A stretch of 64,000 bases of DNA from Pigmentiphaga kullae (GTDB taxonomy: Bacteria > Pseudomonadota > Gammaproteobacteria > Burkholderiales > Burkholderiaceae_B), in assembly GCF_004216695.1 (NCBI RefSeq), contig NZ_SGXC01000002.1, positions 1,674,001-1,738,000 on the forward strand, in the 5' to 3' direction. The position numbers were made by a program, and so were the translations under genes. The stretch's first letter is position 1. The number at the start of each line of letters is the position of its first letter. Under the pieces are notes generated by a model that made no database searches, had not been told where the DNA came from, and worked only from the letters and a program-made list of their open reading frames with translations. Below are positions 22,023 to 34,465 of this stretch, one piece after another.

Positions 22023-23255
22023 GTGAATGCCACCCCCCGCTTTTCGACCGGGCCGCGCAGCGGTCCGATAGCCGCCGGCCTTGCCGCGCTGGCCCTGTGG
22101 GGCTGCGCCTCGTCCCCGCCTCCTGCCGCCGCGCCCATGCAGGGCGTCCCGGCCGCCCCCGACATGCAGGCCGCCCCGCGTGCCGGCGCCCCGGTCCCGC
22201 GGCCCGCGGCGCCGGCTCCTGCCGCGCCGGTGGCCGTCCCGGTTCCCGTGCCCGCTCCCTCCAGCCCCCTGTCGGCGGCCGAGGCAAGGCGCGCCTTCGT
22301 GGCCGACATGGCCGGCCGGGGCCTGGATGCCGCCCGGGTCGGCGCCCTGCTCGACCAGGCGAAATATTCGGAAACCGTCGCGCGGCTCGTGCTGCCGCCC
22401 TCCTCGCCCACCGTACGCAGCTGGCCCCGGTACCGCGCGCGCTTCATCGAAAGCCGCCGCATCAAGGAAGGCGTCGCGTTCCAGGAGGAACATGCGCAGG
22501 ACCTGGCGCGGGCCGAAACCCGCTACGGCGTGCCCGCCTCCATCATCGTCAGCGTCATCGGCGTCGAAACCTTCTATGGCCGGGTCACCGGCAACTTCCG
22601 CATCATCGACGCGCTGACCACCCTGGCCTTCAACTATCCGGCCCAGGCCCGCAGCGACCGCAGCGCCTTCTTCCGCGAACAACTGGCGCAGTTCCTGATC
22701 TGGTGCCGGGAAACCGGCGCCGATCCGCTGGCCGTGAAGGGTTCGTACGCGGGCGCGATGGGCCTGCCGCAGTTCATGCCCGGCAGCCTGCGCCAGTTCG
22801 CCGTGGACGGCGATGGCGACGGCCGCATCGACCTGCTGGCCAGCCCCGCCGACGCCATCGCCTCGGTGGCCAACTTCCTGGTCGAACATGGATGGCAGCG
22901 CGGCCAGCCGGTGTTCCTGCCGGTCCGGCTACCCGGCGACCCGGCCGCGCTGGTCGATGGCGGACTCAAGCCCACGCTCAACTGGACCCAGTTGCAGGAG
23001 GCCGGCGCGCGGGCGCCCAAGGTGGCGGGGATGTCGGATGCGTGGATGGAATGGCCGCTGGCCGTCATCGACCTGTACGACGGCGCCACGGGCACGACCG
23101 AGTACCGCGTCGCCGCGCCCAACTTCTTCGCCCTGACCGAATACAACCGCAGCTATTTCTACGCCACTTCGGTCACCGACCTGGCCGTGGAACTGGAACG
23201 GCGCGGCCGGCTGGCGAACCGTGTCAGTCAGTTGAACACGCCGGTGGACAAGTAG
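22023..23255 (+). CDS. mltB: membrane-bound lytic murein transglycosylase B
   Basis: This lipoprotein cleaves peptidoglycan between MurNAc and GlcNAc to give 1,6-anhydro ends. The 410-residue protein begins with GTG. It has a lipobox LWGC (Cys28), an alanine/proline-rich linker (about 30-82), and the SLT_2 fold with catalytic Glu182 in IIVSVIGVETFYGR. Further family parts are AMGLPQFMPGSLRQFAVDGDGDGRIDL and NFFALTEYNRSYFYATSV. Its 3' end overlaps the convergent cysM gene by 28 bp. Confidence 0.94.
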   Translation: MNATPRFSTGPRSGPIAAGLAALALWGCASSPPPAAAPMQGVPAAPDMQAAPRAGAPVPRPAAPAPAAPVAVPVPVPAPSSPLSAAEARRAFVADMAGRGLDAARVGALLDQAKYSETVARLVLPPSSPTVRSWPRYRARFIESRRIKEGVAFQEEHAQDLARAETRYGVPASIIVSVIGVETFYGRVTGNFRIIDALTTLAFNYPAQARSDRSAFFREQLAQFLIWCRETGADPLAVKGSYAGAMGLPQFMPGSLRQFAVDGDGDGRIDLLASPADAIASVANFLVEHGWQRGQPVFLPVRLPGDPAALVDGGLKPTLNWTQLQEAGARAPKVAGMSDAWMEWPLAVIDLYDGATGTTEYRVAAPNFFALTEYNRSYFYATSVTDLAVELERRGRLANRVSQLNTPVDK

Positions 23256-24145
23256 CGGTCGCCACGGTCGCAGACGATGAAGACGATGGTGGCGTTGCTG
23301 ACGGTCTCGGCCACGCGCAGCGCCGCCACCAGGGCTCCGGCGGATGAGATGCCGCCGAAGATGCCTTCTTCCGCGGCCAGCCGGCGGGCCATGTCCTCGG
23401 CCTCGGCCTGCGTGACGGACTCCTGGCTGTCCACCGCCGACGGATCGTAGATCTTGGGCAGGTAGGCCTCGGGCCACTTGCGGATGCCGGGGATCTGCGA
23501 GCCTTCGGCGGGCTGCGCGCCCACCACCTGGACCGCCGGATTGCGGCTCTTCAAATAGCGCGAGACGCCCACGATGGTTCCCGTGGTGCCCATGGCGCTG
23601 ACGAAATGCGTGACCTGTCCGTCGGTGTCGCGCCAGATTTCCGGCCCGGTGGTCTCGACGTGGGCCAGGGGGTTGTCGGGATTGGCGAACTGGTCCAGTA
23701 CCTTGCCCTTGCCCTCGGCCTGCATCTGCAAGGCCAGGTCGCGGGCGTACTCCATGCCCCCCTGCGAAGCCGGCGTCAGGATCAACTCCGCCCCGTAGGC
23801 CGTCATGGCCGCGCGGCGCTCTAGCGACAGGTTGTCCGGCATGATCAGGATCATGCGGTAGCCGCGTATGGCCGCCACCAGCGCCAGGGCGATGCCGGTG
23901 TTCCCGCTGGTTGCCTCGATCAGGGTATCGCCCGGCTTGATCTCGCCCCGGGACTCGGCCCGGGCGATCATGGACAGGGCCGGCCGGTCCTTGACCGAAC
24001 CGGCCGGATTCGTGCCTTCCAGCTTCGCGAGGATGACGTTGCCGCGCGCGGCATTCCCTTCTCCGGGAATGCGCTGGAGGCGGACCAGGGGCGTGTTGCC
24101 GATGGTCTGTTCGATGGTGGGGTAGCTTCTCATGCGCCCCATCAT
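23228..24145 (-). CDS. cysM: cysteine synthase B (O-acetylserine sulfhydrylase)
   Basis: PLP enzyme making cysteine (or S-sulfocysteine from thiosulfate) from O-acetylserine. The 305-residue protein shows IGNTPLVRLQRI, the PLP lysine in NPAGSVKDRPAL (Lys52) and the phosphate-binding TSGNTGIALA. The CysM-type loop HFVSAMGTTGTIVGVSRYLK and the shorter CysM C-terminus DRGDRYLSTGVFN follow. The first ATG (24145) overlaps the comEA-like stop; an ATG at 24133 is also possible. It complements the sulfate operon 10 kb away. Confidence 0.95.
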   Translation of the reverse strand: MMGRMRSYPTIEQTIGNTPLVRLQRIPGEGNAARGNVILAKLEGTNPAGSVKDRPALSMIARAESRGEIKPGDTLIEATSGNTGIALALVAAIRGYRMILIMPDNLSLERRAAMTAYGAELILTPASQGGMEYARDLALQMQAEGKGKVLDQFANPDNPLAHVETTGPEIWRDTDGQVTHFVSAMGTTGTIVGVSRYLKSRNPAVQVVGAQPAEGSQIPGIRKWPEAYLPKIYDPSAVDSQESVTQAEAEDMARRLAAEEGIFGGISSAGALVAALRVAETVSNATIVFIVCDRGDRYLSTGVFN

Positions 24146-27997: not shown

Positions 27998-28321
27998 TTA
28001 CAACGGCGTCACGGGCAGGATGGCGTCGGGCGACGGCGGCGCATCCGCGGCCAAGCCGCCCTTGGCCACGGCCCGCGCCTGGTCCAGCTCGCGCCGCAGC
28101 GAGGCGATCTCGCGCCGGCGGCGCATCACGCCCGGCACGGTCAGCAACAGGCCGAATACCGCGCCCACCACGAAGCTGGCCAGCATGACGACGATCAGCG
28201 GCACTTCGCTGATCAGGTGATCGGCGAAGAAATAGACGTTCACCCGGTCGGTATTCTTGAGCGCGAACAGCAGGACCACGACGAATATGACCAGTCTCAG
28301 CGCCCAGACGAGATATCGCAT
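27998..28321 (-). CDS. lapA: LapA-like DUF1049 inner-membrane protein
   Basis: This 107-residue protein has two membrane helices: residues 4-21 (LVWALRLVIFVVVLLFAL) and about 42-62 (LIVVMLASFVVGAVFGLLL). The DUF1049 pattern KNTDRVNVYFFADHLISEVPL lies between them. A short coiled-coil-like tail follows (MRRRREIASLRRELDQARA). LapA acts with LapB in lipopolysaccharide assembly. In related genomes it lies close behind ihfB; here a 6.4-kb accessory segment separates the two. Confidence 0.92.
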   Translation of the reverse strand: MRYLVWALRLVIFVVVLLFALKNTDRVNVYFFADHLISEVPLIVVMLASFVVGAVFGLLLTVPGVMRRRREIASLRRELDQARAVAKGGLAADAPPSPDAILPVTPL

Positions 28322-28518: not shown

Positions 28519-30174
28519 ATGAACCACCCAGCAACGACAGAAACACGGCACGAGGCACGTGAAATCGGCCGCATCGATCCGCAGCGGCTGGCATCGCTGC
28601 TCCAGGACAGGAAAGAACTGGCCCTGGTCGACGTCCGGGAAACCGGCGCGTTCGCCCGGCGACACATTCTCTATGCGGTTTCCGTGCCGCTATGGCGCCT
28701 GGAACTGCTGATCCGGCGGAAAGTGCCGCGCAAGCAGACCCGCATCGTCGTCACGGATGACCACGGCCTGCTCGCGAAGGAAGCCGCCGGGCTGCTCGAC
28801 CGGCTCGGCTATTCGGACATCGCCATTCTCGAGGGCGGGATCGCCGCCTGGGAAGACGCGGGCCTCGAGGTATTCAGCGGCGAAAACGTCCCGAGCAAGG
28901 CATTCGGCGAAATCGTCGAAGTCGAAGCGAACACGCCGCACATCAGCGCCCGCCAGTTGCATGACCGCATCCAGGCCGGAGAAAACCTGGTCATCGTCGA
29001 CGGCCGCACGCCCGAAGAGTTTTTCAATTTCAGCATTCCCGGCGCCCACAACCTGCCGAACGCGGAACTGCCGTACCGCATCCGCGAACTGGCGCCCGAC
29101 CCCACGACACCGATCGTCGTCAATTGCGCGGGCCGCACCCGCAGCATCATCGGCGCGCAAACCCTCATCGACGCCGGCGTTCCCAATCCCGTCGTCTCGC
29201 TGCAGGACGGCACCATGGCGTGGCTGCTCGACGGCCATGCGCTGGCACATGGAAAACGCGGGATCCTGCCCGAACCGTCCCCGGAACATCTCCGGCAGGC
29301 GCAGGACCATGCCCAACGGCTGCGGGAACGGACCGGCGTTTCCTACATCGACGGCAGGACGCTCGAACAATGGCGCAACGCCCCGGACAGAAGCACTTTC
29401 CTGTTCGACATCCGCACCAGGGAAGAGTATCGCGCGGGCCATCTGGCGGGCTGGCGCTGGGCGCCGGGGGGGCAGCTGGTCCAGGCCACGGACGAGTACA
29501 TCGGCACACTGGGCGCACGCGTCGTGATCGCCGACTGGGACGGCGTGCGCGCGGCCACCGTCGCCGCCTGGCTGGTCCAGCTGGGCCGGTATGACGTCCA
29601 CCTGTACCTGCCGGAACATCCGGCACAGCTGGAAACGGGCGACGAACCGGCATACCTGCTCAGGGACCCCGGCACGGGCCCTTCGGCATGGATTTCCCTG
29701 GAGGAAGTGGCGCGGGCACAGGAACGGGGCGACATCGCCGTGGTCGATGTCGATTCCGCCCGGCACTATGCGAAAAAGCACATTCCATCGGCCTACTACA
29801 TCGTCGCCGAACGCATCGAGCACTTCGCGCCACGACTGCTTTCGGGCGGCAAGACCCTGGTCATCACCTCCTCCGACGGCATCCTTGCCGATCTCGTCGC
29901 GCGCAGGCTCCAGACCCGGGGCCTGGCGGCCAGGGCGTTGCTCGGCGGCAATCGCGCCTGGTTCGAAGCGGGCCTGCCCGCCGAAAGCGGCGCCGAGAAC
30001 AACCTGAGCGGCGAAGAATACGCATGGTTCAACGCCTATGACCACGCCGACATTTCCGTGCGCAACGAGAAATTCAAGGAATACCTCGATTGGGAGGTCG
30101 GACTGGTCGAGCAATTGAAACGCAAAGGCGCCGAGACCCCGTTTACCGTGCTCGGCGCACAAACCGTCCGATAA
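28519..30174 (+). CDS. four-domain rhodanese (sulfurtransferase) protein
   Basis: This 551-residue cytoplasmic protein is built from four tandem rhodanese domains at about 18-118, 140-240, 275-366 and 390-488. Each has a recognisable CH2A region (VDVRETGAF, VDGRTPEEFF, FDIRTREEYRAGHLAG, VDVDSARHYAKKHIPSA). Only domain 2 keeps the active-site cysteine, in VNCAGRTRS (Cys203). The matching positions read VTDDHGLLA, IADWDGVRA and ITSSDGILA in domains 1, 3 and 4. The active loop CAGRTRS is six-membered, as in persulfide-carrying sulfurtransferases. It starts the accessory segment between lapA and ihfB and lies 20 bp ahead of a complete TTT transporter, suggesting a shared substrate. No clear Shine-Dalgarno precedes the ATG. 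Confidence 0.92.
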   Translation: MNHPATTETRHEAREIGRIDPQRLASLLQDRKELALVDVRETGAFARRHILYAVSVPLWRLELLIRRKVPRKQTRIVVTDDHGLLAKEAAGLLDRLGYSDIAILEGGIAAWEDAGLEVFSGENVPSKAFGEIVEVEANTPHISARQLHDRIQAGENLVIVDGRTPEEFFNFSIPGAHNLPNAELPYRIRELAPDPTTPIVVNCAGRTRSIIGAQTLIDAGVPNPVVSLQDGTMAWLLDGHALAHGKRGILPEPSPEHLRQAQDHAQRLRERTGVSYIDGRTLEQWRNAPDRSTFLFDIRTREEYRAGHLAGWRWAPGGQLVQATDEYIGTLGARVVIADWDGVRAATVAAWLVQLGRYDVHLYLPEHPAQLETGDEPAYLLRDPGTGPSAWISLEEVARAQERGDIAVVDVDSARHYAKKHIPSAYYIVAERIEHFAPRLLSGGKTLVITSSDGILADLVARRLQTRGLAARALLGGNRAWFEAGLPAESGAENNLSGEEYAWFNAYDHADISVRNEKFKEYLDWEVGLVEQLKRKGAETPFTVLGAQTVR

Positions 30175-30194
30175 GCCCCTGATTGGAGTTTCCA

Positions 30195-31187
30195 ATGAAA
30201 CGCCGTGAATTTCTAGGCGCCGCCGGGATGGCGACCGCGTCGTCCCTGTTCGGCATCCCCTTGTCCGGCCATGCGCAATCCGCGGATGGATTCCCTGCGA
30301 AGAATCTGCGCATTCTCGTATCCGCATCGCCCGGCGGCAGTGCCGACAAACTCGCCCGGACGATCGGACAGAAGCTCGATGCGGTCTGGGGCACCCGCAC
30401 GCTCGTCGAGAACCAGCCGGGCGGCGGCGGGTCCATTGCCACCAACACCGTCGCAAAGGCGAGACCCGACGGCTATACGCTGCTGCTCGGCGGCGACGGG
30501 CTGTCCATCGATGCCATCCAGCAAACCAGGCCATTGCCGTACGACCCGCAAAAAGACCTGACCGGCGTCATCAAGGCCGTGGTCAACCCGCTACTCATCA
30601 TGGTCAGGCCGAATCTCGGCGTCAACAACATCCAGGAGTACCTGCAGTTCCTGAAGGCCAACGAAGGCAAGACGTCCCTGGCCCTTTCCGGCGCCAAGAA
30701 CAGCCACCAGCACCTGGCGGTCGAACTGCTGTCCCAATTGACCGGCGTGAAGATCAACGTGATTCCGTCCCTGGGTGGCGGCCCCGCCATGCTGGACGTG
30801 ATTGGCGGGCACATCGATGCGCAGATCATTACCCTGGCGGCCGCGACGGAAAACGTTCGCGCCGGGAAACTGAAAGGACTGGCGGTCACCACGCCGTTCC
30901 GCTCCAAGGCCTTGCCGGACATCCCCACGCTTCAGGAGGCCGGCATCAAGGGCTACGCCTTCCAAAGCTGGCAGGGCCTGGTTGCGCCCGCCGGCACACC
31001 GGCCCCCATCATCCAGAAAATCTACGGCGAAGTTGCCGGCATCCTGCAGAAACCGGAAAACAGGAACGCGCTGGAAGACCTGGGCTTCATCGTAACGGCA
31101 TCCAACCCGGCTGACGTCAACCAGACCATTGCGAATGACAGCAAGCTGTATGCCGAAGTCGCCCGCAAGGCAGGCCTGAAACTGTAG
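30195..31187 (+). CDS. tctC: Tat-targeted Bug-family (TctC) solute receptor
   Basis: This 330-residue periplasmic receptor has an N-terminus MKRREFLGAAGMATASSLFG with the twin-arginine motif (RREFLG), so export is probably by Tat in folded form. Receptor signatures follow: LRILVSASPGGSADKLARTIGQ, KARPDGYTLLLGGDGLS, VNPLLIMVRPNLG and VIPSLGGGPAMLDVIGGHIDAQ. The ATG at 30195 has GGAG seven bases ahead. Unlike the other three Bug receptors in the window it is followed by its own TctB and TctA genes, and a rhodanese gene precedes it. Confidence 0.93.
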   Translation: MKRREFLGAAGMATASSLFGIPLSGHAQSADGFPAKNLRILVSASPGGSADKLARTIGQKLDAVWGTRTLVENQPGGGGSIATNTVAKARPDGYTLLLGGDGLSIDAIQQTRPLPYDPQKDLTGVIKAVVNPLLIMVRPNLGVNNIQEYLQFLKANEGKTSLALSGAKNSHQHLAVELLSQLTGVKINVIPSLGGGPAMLDVIGGHIDAQIITLAAATENVRAGKLKGLAVTTPFRSKALPDIPTLQEAGIKGYAFQSWQGLVAPAGTPAPIIQKIYGEVAGILQKPENRNALEDLGFIVTASNPADVNQTIANDSKLYAEVARKAGLKL

Positions 31188-31196
31188 GAAGCGAAC

Positions 31197-31673
31197 GTGG
31201 CGCCTTCATTCATAAGAAACCAGCCAGACTTCGTACTGGGCTTGCTGTACATCCTGGCCGGCGGCGGCTTCGCCGCCGCGGCCAGCCGATATGACATGGG
31301 CACGCTGGCCTACATGGGTCCGGGCTACTTCCCGTTCATGCTTGGCACTCTGCTGGCGGCCATCGGCGCCTGGATCGTTCTGCGCGCCATATTGGTCCGG
31401 GGCGTGCGGGTCAGGCTCGCGCCCTGGAACCTGCGCTCGCTGCTCTGGATGGTCGGATCGATCATCATGTTCGGTCTCGCGCTGCAGCCGCTGGGGCTGG
31501 TCGTCGCCTTGGTGCTGCTGGTCATACTGGCCAGCCTGGCCAGCCACGAATTCACCTGGAAGACCACGCTCGTCAATGCCACCGTCATGGTCGTGCTCAA
31601 TGTGGGCGGCTTCGTCTACGGGCTTTCCATTCCCTTCCCCGTGCTGCCCCAGATCGCCGCCTTCCCGCTCTAG
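31197..31673 (+). CDS. tctB: tripartite tricarboxylate transporter TctB family protein
   Basis: This small membrane subunit of 158 residues is poorly conserved in sequence, as usual for TctB. It has about four helices (FVLGLLYILAGGGFAAAAS; FPFMLGTLLAAIGAWIVLRAIL; SLLWMVGSIIMFGLAL with LGLVVALVLLVILASLA; ATVMVVLNVGGFVYGLSIPF). The start is GTG at 31197, with AGGAAG ahead. It lies nine bases behind the receptor gene and six before tctA, so the order is receptor-TctB-TctA. Confidence 0.9.
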   Translation: MAPSFIRNQPDFVLGLLYILAGGGFAAAASRYDMGTLAYMGPGYFPFMLGTLLAAIGAWIVLRAILVRGVRVRLAPWNLRSLLWMVGSIIMFGLALQPLGLVVALVLLVILASLASHEFTWKTTLVNATVMVVLNVGGFVYGLSIPFPVLPQIAAFPL

Positions 31674-31679
31674 AGTCCC

Positions 31680-33197
31680 ATGGATTTATTCGACAATCTG
31701 GCGCTGGGCTTCGCCACCGCCCTGACATGGCAAAACGCCGGCTACGCGCTGCTCGGCTGCCTGATCGGTACCTTCATCGGGCTGCTGCCGGGCCTGGGTC
31801 CGATCTCGACCGTCGCCATGCTGCTGCCCATCACCTACAGCCTGCCTCCCGCCGGCGCCCTGATCCTCCTGGCCAGCATCTACTACGGCGCCCAATACGG
31901 CGGATCGACGACAGCCATCCTGCTGAAGCTTCCAGGCGAATCCTCCTCGGCCGTCACCATGATCGACGGCCACGCCATGGCCAGGCAGGGACGCGCGGGC
32001 GTGGCGCTTGCCACCGCGGCCATCGGCTCGTTCATCGCGGGCAGCTTCGGGGTCCTTCTGCTCGCCACGGTGGCCGAGCCCCTGACCCAGGTCGCCTTCC
32101 TGTTCGGGCCCGCCGAGTATTTTTCGCTGATGGTGCTCGGCCTGGTCGGCTCCATAGCCCTTTCCTCGGACACCATCGACAAGTCGCTCGGCCTGATGGT
32201 GCTGGGCTTGCTGTTCAGCCTGGTCGGCACCGACGTCAACTCGGGCGAATACCGCTTCACCGGAAACATTTCCGATCTTTACGACGGCATCGAGCTGACC
32301 GCCCTTGCCATGGGCGTCTTCGGTGTGGCGGAAATCGCGTTCAACCTGGAGCAATACAACCGTGAACGCAACAGGAACGCGACGCTGGCCAAGGTCACGC
32401 AATTGATACCGGGGAAACAGGACATTCGCCGCATGATGCCCGCCATCGCGCGGGGCACGGCCATCGGCTCGCTGCTTGGCGCCCTGCCCGGCGCGGGCGT
32501 GACCATGGCCTCTTTCGCCGGCTATGCGCTGGAAAAGAAAGTATCCCGCTACAAGGACGAACTCGGACAGGGCGCCATCGAAGGCGTGGCCGGCCCCGAG
32601 TCCGCCAACAATGCCGCGGCGCAGACCAACTTCATTTCGCTGCTGACGCTGGGCATTCCCGGCAGCGCCATCATGGCCCTGCTGCTGGGCGCCATGATCA
32701 TCCAGGACATCCAGCCGGGCCCCCAGGTCATTTCCAATCACCCCGCGGTTTTCTGGGGCCTGATCGCCTCGATGTGGATCGGCAACCTGATGCTGGTGGT
32801 GCTGAATCTTCCCATGGTCGGCATCTGGGTCAAGATGCTGCGCGTACCGTACCGCATCCTGTTCCCCGTCATCCTGGTCTTCTGCTCGGTTGGCGCCTTC
32901 ACAGTGCGGGCATCGGTATTCGACATCTACCTGCTGGGCGCGTTCGGCATACTGGGCTACGTGCTGATCAAGCTGGAGGTATCGCCCGTGCCGCTGCTGA
33001 TGGGCATGGTGCTGGGGCCGATGCTGGAAAACAGCTTCAGGCGCGCGCTGATGGTGTCGCGGGGCGATCTGTCCATCATCTATTCACGCCCGCTTTCCCT
33101 CGGCCTGCTGATCGCCGCCGGGCTGCTGATCGTGATATCGGCCTACCCTTCCGTGGTCAGGAAACGCAAGACCGTGCTGGCGGAAGAATCCGCATAA
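31680..33197 (+). CDS. tctA: tripartite tricarboxylate transporter large permease TctA
   Basis: This 505-residue sodium-driven permease has about 11-12 helices. It carries the family signatures GLLPGLGPISTVAMLLPITY, YYGAQYGGSTTAILLKLPGESSS, GALPGAGVTMASFAGYALEKK and GVAGPESANNAAAQTNFISLLTLGIPGSAIMALLLGAM. It completes a dedicated tripartite carrier with the upstream Tat-exported receptor and TctB. Known members carry citrate, tartrate or aromatic acids; the substrate here is unknown. The rhodanese gene in the same apparent operon hints at a sulfur-containing acid, which is inference. Confidence 0.95.
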   Translation: MDLFDNLALGFATALTWQNAGYALLGCLIGTFIGLLPGLGPISTVAMLLPITYSLPPAGALILLASIYYGAQYGGSTTAILLKLPGESSSAVTMIDGHAMARQGRAGVALATAAIGSFIAGSFGVLLLATVAEPLTQVAFLFGPAEYFSLMVLGLVGSIALSSDTIDKSLGLMVLGLLFSLVGTDVNSGEYRFTGNISDLYDGIELTALAMGVFGVAEIAFNLEQYNRERNRNATLAKVTQLIPGKQDIRRMMPAIARGTAIGSLLGALPGAGVTMASFAGYALEKKVSRYKDELGQGAIEGVAGPESANNAAAQTNFISLLTLGIPGSAIMALLLGAMIIQDIQPGPQVISNHPAVFWGLIASMWIGNLMLVVLNLPMVGIWVKMLRVPYRILFPVILVFCSVGAFTVRASVFDIYLLGAFGILGYVLIKLEVSPVPLLMGMVLGPMLENSFRRALMVSRGDLSIIYSRPLSLGLLIAAGLLIVISAYPSVVRKRKTVLAEESA

Positions 33198-33316: not shown

Positions 33317-34465
33317 ATGACGCGCAGCACAGGTACTTACGCCATCTCCACAACGCTAGGTGAAGCTGTGCGGGCGTTCGTGCCTCATCCGCTGCCGCCC
33401 ACAGATCCTCTGCTGGCGCCGGCGTCGTTTGCCGACCTCAATCGGCAGGCGGAACTCGCGCTTGCCCGGCTGTCGGGCGTATCAGGGCTGGTTCCCTCGG
33501 TGGACTGGCTGCTCTATAGCGCCGTGCGCAAGGAAGCCTTGCTCACTTCGCAGATCGAAGGCACGCAGGCCACCCTGACCGACCTGTTTGACGAAGAAGC
33601 GGGCTTCAAGGTCGGTAACACCGACGACGTGGCCGAGGTGACCAATTATCTGCGCGCGTTTCGCTTGGTGCAGGAACAACTGCGTGACCCCAAAGGGCTG
33701 CCGATCAGCGCGCGCCTGCTGTGCGAAGCGCACCGGCTGTTACTGGATGGTGTGCGCGGTGCGGGCAAGCAGCCCGGCGAACTGCGACACTCGCAGAACT
33801 GGATTGGCGGCACGCGACCGGGCAATGCGGTGTTCGTGCCGCCGCCACCTGAGCGCGTGTCGGAACTGTTGTCGAATCTGGAGCGGTTCGTCCACGAAGC
33901 AACGGGAGAACTGCCGCCGCTGGTCAGGATCGCGCTGATCCACGCTCAGTTCGAGACGATCCATCCCTTCCTGGACGGCAACGGGCGCATCGGCCGCCTG
34001 TTGATCGCGGCGCTGCTGGAGCACTGGAACTTGCTGGCCGAGCCTTTGATGTACCTCAGCGGCTACCTGAAGCAGCATCAGGCCGAGTATTACCGCCGCC
34101 TGTCGGGCATTCGCACCGAGGGTGACTGGGAGTCATGGGTGTCGTTCTTTCTGGAGGGTGTGGCGGCCGCCGCAGCGCAGGCCGAGCAGAGCATCATCGC
34201 CGTCGCCAGCCTGATCGCCGCCGACCGCCGCAAGCTGCTGCAATCGCCCAAGGCCAGTCCGGCCAGCTACAGGTTGTTTGAGTTGCTGCCGATGATGCCG
34301 CGCTTCACCGTGGAGCGCGTGCGACAGCGGTTGGATACCACATTCCCGACCGCCAACGCAGCTGTGAAGGTGCTAGAAGCCTTGGGCGTCGTGGTGGAAG
34401 TGACCGGGCAGAAGAAGAACCGTAGCTACAGCTATGAGGGCTACGTTGAATTGCTCACGCGTTGA
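33317..34465 (+). CDS. class II Fic-domain AMP-transferase with C-terminal winged helix
   Basis: Fic enzymes transfer AMP from ATP to hydroxyl side chains of target proteins. The 382-residue protein has the complete active-site loop HPFLDGNGR (216-224). An N-terminal inhibitory helix with the TxxxEG motif (TSQIEG, 77-82) makes it class II, self-inhibited by the glutamate. The C-terminal region (about 320-366) resembles a winged helix. Layout and length resemble the Shewanella oneidensis Fic protein. AAGGAA lies six bases ahead of the ATG. No antitoxin gene (FicA/Phd) is adjacent, as expected for class II. Its codon use looks less GC-rich than neighbouring housekeeping genes, and an integrase remnant follows. 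Confidence 0.92.
   Translation: MTRSTGTYAISTTLGEAVRAFVPHPLPPTDPLLAPASFADLNRQAELALARLSGVSGLVPSVDWLLYSAVRKEALLTSQIEGTQATLTDLFDEEAGFKVGNTDDVAEVTNYLRAFRLVQEQLRDPKGLPISARLLCEAHRLLLDGVRGAGKQPGELRHSQNWIGGTRPGNAVFVPPPPERVSELLSNLERFVHEATGELPPLVRIALIHAQFETIHPFLDGNGRIGRLLIAALLEHWNLLAEPLMYLSGYLKQHQAEYYRRLSGIRTEGDWESWVSFFLEGVAAAAAQAEQSIIAVASLIAADRRKLLQSPKASPASYRLFELLPMMPRFTVERVRQRLDTTFPTANAAVKVLEALGVVVEVTGQKKNRSYSYEGYVELLTR

Follow-up and report, generated by a model that had tools for sequence, protein, structure and literature searches.

The window, that is the whole stretch of 64,000 nucleotides of the Pigmentiphaga kullae genome analysed here, carries at positions 28519-30174 (+) an ORF that starts with ATG and encodes a rhodanese of 551 aa. 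Only 20 nucleotides separate its stop codon from the ATG of a gene encoding TctC (position 30195, read from the sequence), which is followed by the genes for TctB and TctA. Judging from this gene order, the rhodanese and TctC-TctB-TctA genes form an apparent four-gene operon with the rhodanese first. The features of the locus are as follows.

28519..30174, + strand: four-domain rhodanese, 551 aa, catalytic Cys203 (four PF00581 stretches; full-length match to 1yt8; AlphaFold2 model)
28570..28872, + strand: domain 1, approximately residues 18-118, Asp80 at the catalytic position (D80 in 61/66 family sequences; profile-profile alignment)
28933..29250, + strand: domain 2, approximately residues 139-244, active loop C203-A-G-R-T-R208 (C203 and R208 in 66/66)
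29341..29613, + strand: domain 3, approximately residues 275-365, putative pseudo-site D339...R344 (D339 in 66/66, R344 in 65/66)
29704..29988, + strand: domain 4, approximately residues 396-490, Ser451 at the catalytic position (Ser in 39, Ala in 15 and Cys in 10 of 66)
30195..31187, + strand: TctC, solute receptor of a tripartite tricarboxylate transporter (PF03401, E 2.1e-59 on 30183-31184)
31197..31673, + strand: TctB (PF07331, E 7.2e-15)
31680..33197, + strand: TctA (PF01970, E 6.1e-150)

Upstream of the rhodanese gene, on the other strand, lies a small gene (27998-28321) that we guess to be LapA, and then comes a LapB-like gene. The gene at window positions 23228-24145 (-), 4.4 kb from the rhodanese gene, encodes a PALP-family PLP enzyme (PF00291); our guess is a cysteine synthase (CysM), and it is probably an incidental neighbour. 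The TctA gene is followed by one for a Fic/DOC family protein (33317-34465, +).

A first-pass annotation made from the sequence had proposed four tandem rhodanese domains in the window protein. A Pfam search returned four stretches of PF00581 (E 7e-48 for the whole protein) and the AlphaFold2 model, computed from a 65-row alignment, reached a mean pLDDT of 93.1 and a pTM of 0.91 with low confidence at both ends only, so that the proposal is borne out by both the domain search and the structure prediction. When the domains were compared with each other by profile-profile alignment, Asp80, Cys203, Asp339 and Ser451 shared one column in all six pairwise comparisons, in agreement with the loops first read from the sequence (Asp, Cys203 in CAGRTRS, Asp/Trp and Ser). 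Cys203 is the sole cysteine at any catalytic position of the window protein, the others being occupied by Asp80, Asp339 and Ser451. An origin of the repeat by chance or artefact was ruled out by the Pfam search, the AlphaFold2 model and the domain-domain alignment, and we firmly assign the window protein to the four-domain rhodanese family.

The architecture itself is already known. A phmmer search of the PDB aligned residues 27-546 of the window protein with residues 17-531 of 1yt8 (539 residues, E 3.5e-115), and Foldseek superposed the model on the same entry with TM scores of 0.91/0.95 and 42% identity in the structural alignment. This entry is a thiosulfate sulfurtransferase from Pseudomonas aeruginosa, which we take to be PA2603, and its structure was released on 2005-03-22; the four-domain layout is presumably also what the NCBI CDD models 4RHOD_Repeat_1 to 4 describe. 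The window protein has the traits of the 1yt8 family, namely four domains in one chain, homology along the full length, and a catalytic Cys in repeat 2 with none in repeats 1 and 3. Like the window protein, 1yt8 consists of four domains end to end; its second domain has the CAGRTRS loop, and its first and third have Asp. It differs at the domain-4 position, which is Cys in 1yt8 and Ser in the window protein. The phmmer and Foldseek matches rule out a new architecture for the window protein, and the earlier view that the arrangement is unusual is not supported, given a full-length homologue with a structure solved since 2005.

To describe conservation we used a family set of 66 sequences that includes the window protein and from which the duplicate loci L009, L048, L049, L015 and L018 were removed. 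All four domains are covered in 65 of the 66 sequences, in a set chosen by similarity to the full-length query and therefore favouring full-length relatives; the exception, L014, lacks domain 4 and was left out of alignment A2 and of the tree. In the family alignment C203 and R208 are invariant (66/66), D339 is found in all 66 sequences, R344 in 65 and D80 in 61. The mean top-residue frequency of the six-residue loops is 0.61, 0.95, 0.78 and 0.52 for domains 1 to 4 over the 66 sequences, against whole-domain means of 0.58, 0.66, 0.61 and 0.49, so that a loop clearly more conserved than its own domain is seen in domains 2 and 3 alone. The first-pass annotation had named variable domain number and the absence of conserved loops as findings that would count against it. 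Neither applies here: domain number is nearly constant in this set, with the sampling bias given above, and two loops are conserved.

Domain 3 retains the Arg at the end of its loop and has Asp in place of Cys, and residues 316-325 of the same domain form a motif, P-G-G-Q-L-x-Q-x-T-D, whose residues are nearly invariant. As judged from the alignment, domain 3 is a conserved Cys-less site. According to the available text of PMC8533005, the loop-end Arg is required for thiosulfate use in yeast RDL2 and DUF442. A C-terminal stretch, Y-L-x-W-E, is conserved as well. The loop of domain 4 drifts across the family, and position 451 is Ser in 39, Ala in 15 and Cys in 10 of the 66 sequences. A Cys stands at this position in L010, L040, L041, L054, L055, L063, L008, L067, L069 and L070, so some family members may have a second active site. 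The claim of a single surviving cysteine consequently holds for the window copy and not for the whole family, since ten of the 66 sequences and 1yt8 have Cys at the domain-4 position. The proposed arrangement of one active site among three pseudo-domains is supported for the window protein.

Other rhodaneses with more or fewer domains resemble the window protein in part. YnjE of Escherichia coli has more than two rhodanese domains and one active Cys. Its structures (2wlr, 2wlx, 3ipo) gave TM scores of only 0.18-0.22 by query, and the arrangement is not the same. EanB, a rhodanese of anaerobic ergothioneine biosynthesis, was matched to the window model by Foldseek (best E 2.8e-11), but TM scores of 0.17-0.20 by query and an rmsd of about 17-20 indicate local domain similarity only. 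Two-domain rhodaneses and mercaptopyruvate sulfurtransferases (1rhd, SseA, TST) have the rhodanese fold in common with the window protein but have two domains, and their TM scores to the whole are low (0.15-0.21 by query). The two-domain layout, in which the C-terminal domain is the active one, is not that of the window protein, where the second of four domains is active. In TST, as in the window protein, an inactive domain precedes the active one, whereas the loop reads CRKGVT in TST and CAGRTR in the window protein (available text of PMC8533005).

We then looked at the genes around the family members. A profile of the dioxygenases (A3) was built from 13 dioxygenase-like neighbours, and it matches the solved 3-mercaptopropionate, mercaptosuccinate and cysteine dioxygenases. 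With this profile, a cysteine-dioxygenase-type gene was found for 27 of the 66 family sequences, fused in frame in six and lying at most 400 bp upstream on the same strand in 21, bearing in mind that the 13 founding neighbours match by construction. In four more (L032, L057, L059 and L065) the gene lies farther off, up to 2.5 kb upstream in the same orientation. A thiol dioxygenase is therefore fused to or near the rhodanese in 31 of the 66, a partner that the first-pass annotation did not foresee and that is absent at the window copy. For the remaining 35 sequences no thiol dioxygenase was found on that strand up to the 2.5 kb limit, with some flanks no longer than 1.5 kb.

The six fused ORFs (L020, L021, L033, L034, L045 and L066) each contain four rhodanese stretches, and all six dioxygenase domains keep the three iron-ligand His. 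The dioxygenase is N-terminal of the rhodanese in all six, and the same layout recurs in a Variovorax paradoxus plasmid gene annotated as 'sulfurtransferase'. When seven fused proteins including L113 were run against Pfam, a dioxygenase was recognised only in L066 (CDO_I, E 2.8e-9), and the result for L113 was a weak hit to AraC_binding (E 0.0028), below its cut-off. For the fusions other than L066 the identity of the dioxygenase thus derives from the A3 profile, from the histidines (as examined in the six ORFs above) and from a phmmer match in the PDB between the dioxygenase part of L021 and mercaptosuccinate dioxygenase 8vni (E 3.4e-35). In L104, L105, L106 and L111 a dioxygenase, a Cys/Met PLP enzyme and the four-domain rhodanese occur together. 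The cluster 'unk206' is taken to be a shadow frame of the dioxygenase gene, since it mostly runs antisense to that gene over the same stretch and its representative has no Pfam match. Literature searches over titles and the starts of abstracts, mostly outside subscription journals, turned up no description of a four-domain rhodanese with a fused thiol dioxygenase.

On the family tree the fusions occupy three places. The clade of the window gene comprises nine rows (support 100/100) and holds two of the fusions (L020 and L021) and one adjacent case (L050), while the window gene and its two nearest tree rows have TctC instead of a dioxygenase. Searches with A3 and with the neighbour profiles detected no dioxygenase near the window gene; the window and L001 share one neighbour record (identical test stretch) and there is no dioxygenase in either. 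A whole-genome search with A3 yielded one clear dioxygenase in the same genome, far off at C2:967249, and did not list the L008 neighbour described next. Directly upstream of this paralog of the window gene, a protein without Pfam match (L008:7926-8636, -) resembles 8vni (phmmer, E 4.6e-9). It scores 4.8e-13 as a dioxygenase with the neighbour-region profile, making L008 a weak instance of the partner arrangement.

In the same genome we counted five four-domain genes, namely the window gene, L007, L005, L006 and L008, the last four encoding proteins with 37-41% identity to the window protein. TctC is directly downstream of four of the five (window, L005, L006 and L008). In L007 two MmgE/PrpD genes lie between the rhodanese and TctC, and another TctC is found upstream on the opposite strand. 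The L006 paralog is preceded by a Rieske oxygenase, a glyoxalase-family gene and a flavin reductase (L006:2399-5237), a context unlike the thiol dioxygenase one. The chance of TctC at four of five paralogs would be about 1.4e-4 at 7.4% per gene (422 candidates over about 5,700 genes, the gene number being an estimate), a figure that treats as independent paralogs which are related by common descent. This genome of 6.2 Mb encodes at least 150 TctC-type (Bug) solute receptors above the Pfam cut-off, 150 of the 422 candidates having been scored, so that TctC neighbours are common and four out of five is less striking than it looks. Across the family, TctC is directly downstream in 17 of the 66 sequences as counted with a profile built from six proteins and a limit of 700 nucleotides, all 17 lying within 300 nucleotides.

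Matches to the window protein occur in 19 of 41 close relatives (E up to 1e-40), in at least 63 of 300 genomes of the order (E up to 1e-40) and in at least 6 of 369 genomes of the class (E up to 1e-50), the own genome being included each time and the last two counts being lower bounds with at most four (order) and three (class) candidates scored per genome. Matches were also found in 131 plasmid records, and in 64 of them a single place spans 80% or more of the query. Seven plasmid regions, among the 30 records listed of these 131, were examined with the PLSDB gene tables, which are incomplete. A cysteine-type dioxygenase is present in two of the seven, fused in Variovorax and annotated as 'cysteine dioxygenase' 5 nucleotides upstream in Klebsiella, and none is among the listed genes of the Agrobacterium, Azospirillum, Shinella and Caballeronia regions; the Cupriavidus region has no annotated features. 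The Azospirillum region encodes a TauD/TfdA dioxygenase, that of Shinella a TauE/SafE sulfite exporter and an LLM oxidoreductase, and that of Caballeronia LLM and SfnB oxidoreductases. L004 belongs to the window clade and has two such genes nearby, one for an NtaA/DmoA-family FMN monooxygenase (435.9 bits, above the NCBIfam cut-off of 279.7) and one that is SfnB-like (234 bits, below the cut-off of 430.9). The other listed NCBIfam matches of monooxygenase- and dehydrogenase-type neighbours are all below the curated cut-offs. The neighbour sets are mixed, with MmgE/PrpD, Rieske oxygenase and flavin reductase genes adjoining paralogs in the own genome.

For related genes the literature offers a few pointers. 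In Pseudomonas protegens, according to the available text of PMC12947264, tst (the PA2603 homologue) lies downstream of 3mdo in an apparent transcription unit, where the window gene is found with TctCBA instead, and deletion of tst did not significantly change extracellular 3-mercaptopropionate. In Advenella, msdo is clustered with cystathionine beta-lyase and a rhodanese, whose domain number is not given in the available text of PMC5373536. In the literature searched, this tst deletion mutant was all that came up, and no study of a purified four-domain enzyme was found. Fusions of persulfide dioxygenase to rhodanese are known, and the persulfide dioxygenase has a metallo-beta-lactamase fold (PMC12856154). 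Such fusions, CstB and PRF among them, are a likely functional parallel to the fused relatives, in which the domain is of the cysteine dioxygenase type; the window copy lacks it. CstB shares the metallo-beta-lactamase fold. The window protein has no dioxygenase in the same chain.

Family, loops, gene order and fusions were computed here, and from them we infer the chemistry, location, sulfite role and substrate. We see an even prospect that the window protein is a one-active-site sulfurtransferase of the 1yt8 type that handles sulfane sulfur and sulfite in organosulfur catabolism. It is probably cytosolic. Because of the family membership, a persulfide at Cys203 and ping-pong transfer are likely. 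Cys203 would accept sulfane sulfur from a donor (persulfide or thiosulfate), become Cys-S-SH and hand the sulfur to an acceptor, and Arg208 at the loop end would deal with the anionic (thiosulfate/sulfite) side. Domain 1 may support the active domain structurally, as happens in two-domain rhodaneses, the domain 3 pseudo-site Asp339...Arg344 probably binds a ligand or holds the architecture, and domain 4 would be the freest to vary. The role in organosulfur catabolism is suggested by the neighbours and fusions. The partners in the family, most often cysteine-dioxygenase-type thiol dioxygenases, would oxidise organosulfur compounds to sulfinate or sulfite, and the rhodanese probably clears sulfite or persulfide (persulfide + sulfite <-> thiol + thiosulfate). 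At the window, the TctC-TctB-TctA importer would supply an organosulfur substrate to the rhodanese. The Klebsiella cysteine dioxygenase and the TauD/TfdA, TauE/SafE, SfnB and LLM neighbours fit sulfite release, whereas the tst deletion in P. protegens, which did not significantly alter extracellular 3-mercaptopropionate, the 35 of 66 sequences without dioxygenase and the mixed neighbours argue against an organosulfur role.

Fusion and adjacency indicate joint action only, and the N-terminal position of the dioxygenase in all six fusions and in the Variovorax gene is compatible with either direction. The rhodanese could act before the dioxygenase, loading sulfane sulfur on a small thiol supplied by the importer so that the partner oxidises the persulfide, or feeding a biosynthetic acceptor. 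We judge this order of events unlikely, since the proteins of solved structure to which the partner is related are named as thiol dioxygenases acting on mercaptosuccinate, 3-mercaptopropionate and cysteine, not on persulfides, and several of the other neighbours would release or export sulfite. The pseudo-domains might instead, as the first-pass annotation proposed, form a binding scaffold that holds a bulky partner (the dioxygenase or a carrier protein) and channels persulfide, catalysis at Cys203 being secondary. The domain 3 pseudo-site with its D339 and R344, the conserved Y-L-x-W-E and the natural fusions would all suit such a scaffold, but the domain-4 loop drifts and conservation is highest in the catalytic loop, as a working enzyme would show, and we think a primarily binding role improbable. 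Finally, five paralogs with differing neighbours in one genome, together with the tst mutant and its lack of a significant 3-mercaptopropionate phenotype (available text of PMC12947264), could speak for a broadly used, general sulfurtransferase for thiosulfate or cyanide, with neighbours of no functional meaning. However, in-frame fusions that keep their iron ligands occur six times, in three parts of the tree, which is hard to put down to coincidence and makes this very unlikely in our view.

Extending the preferred reading of a sulfurtransferase in organosulfur catabolism, we suggest tentatively, and with rather more doubt than conviction, that four-domain rhodaneses provide the sulfurtransferase half of a system that is the cupin counterpart of persulfide dioxygenase-rhodanese systems. 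The dioxygenase would make sulfinate or sulfite from a mercapto acid and the rhodanese would consume the sulfite with persulfide, while domain 3 would bind anions at its Cys-less pseudo-site and so capture or sense thiosulfate or sulfite. The window lineage would then have swapped the dioxygenase for the TctCBA importer. The in-frame thiol dioxygenase fusions give an orphan four-domain protein a concrete partner, and they raise the question of the fate of sulfite and sulfane sulfur when mercapto acids are broken down. The invariant Cys-less site of domain 3 offers a clear target for mutation.
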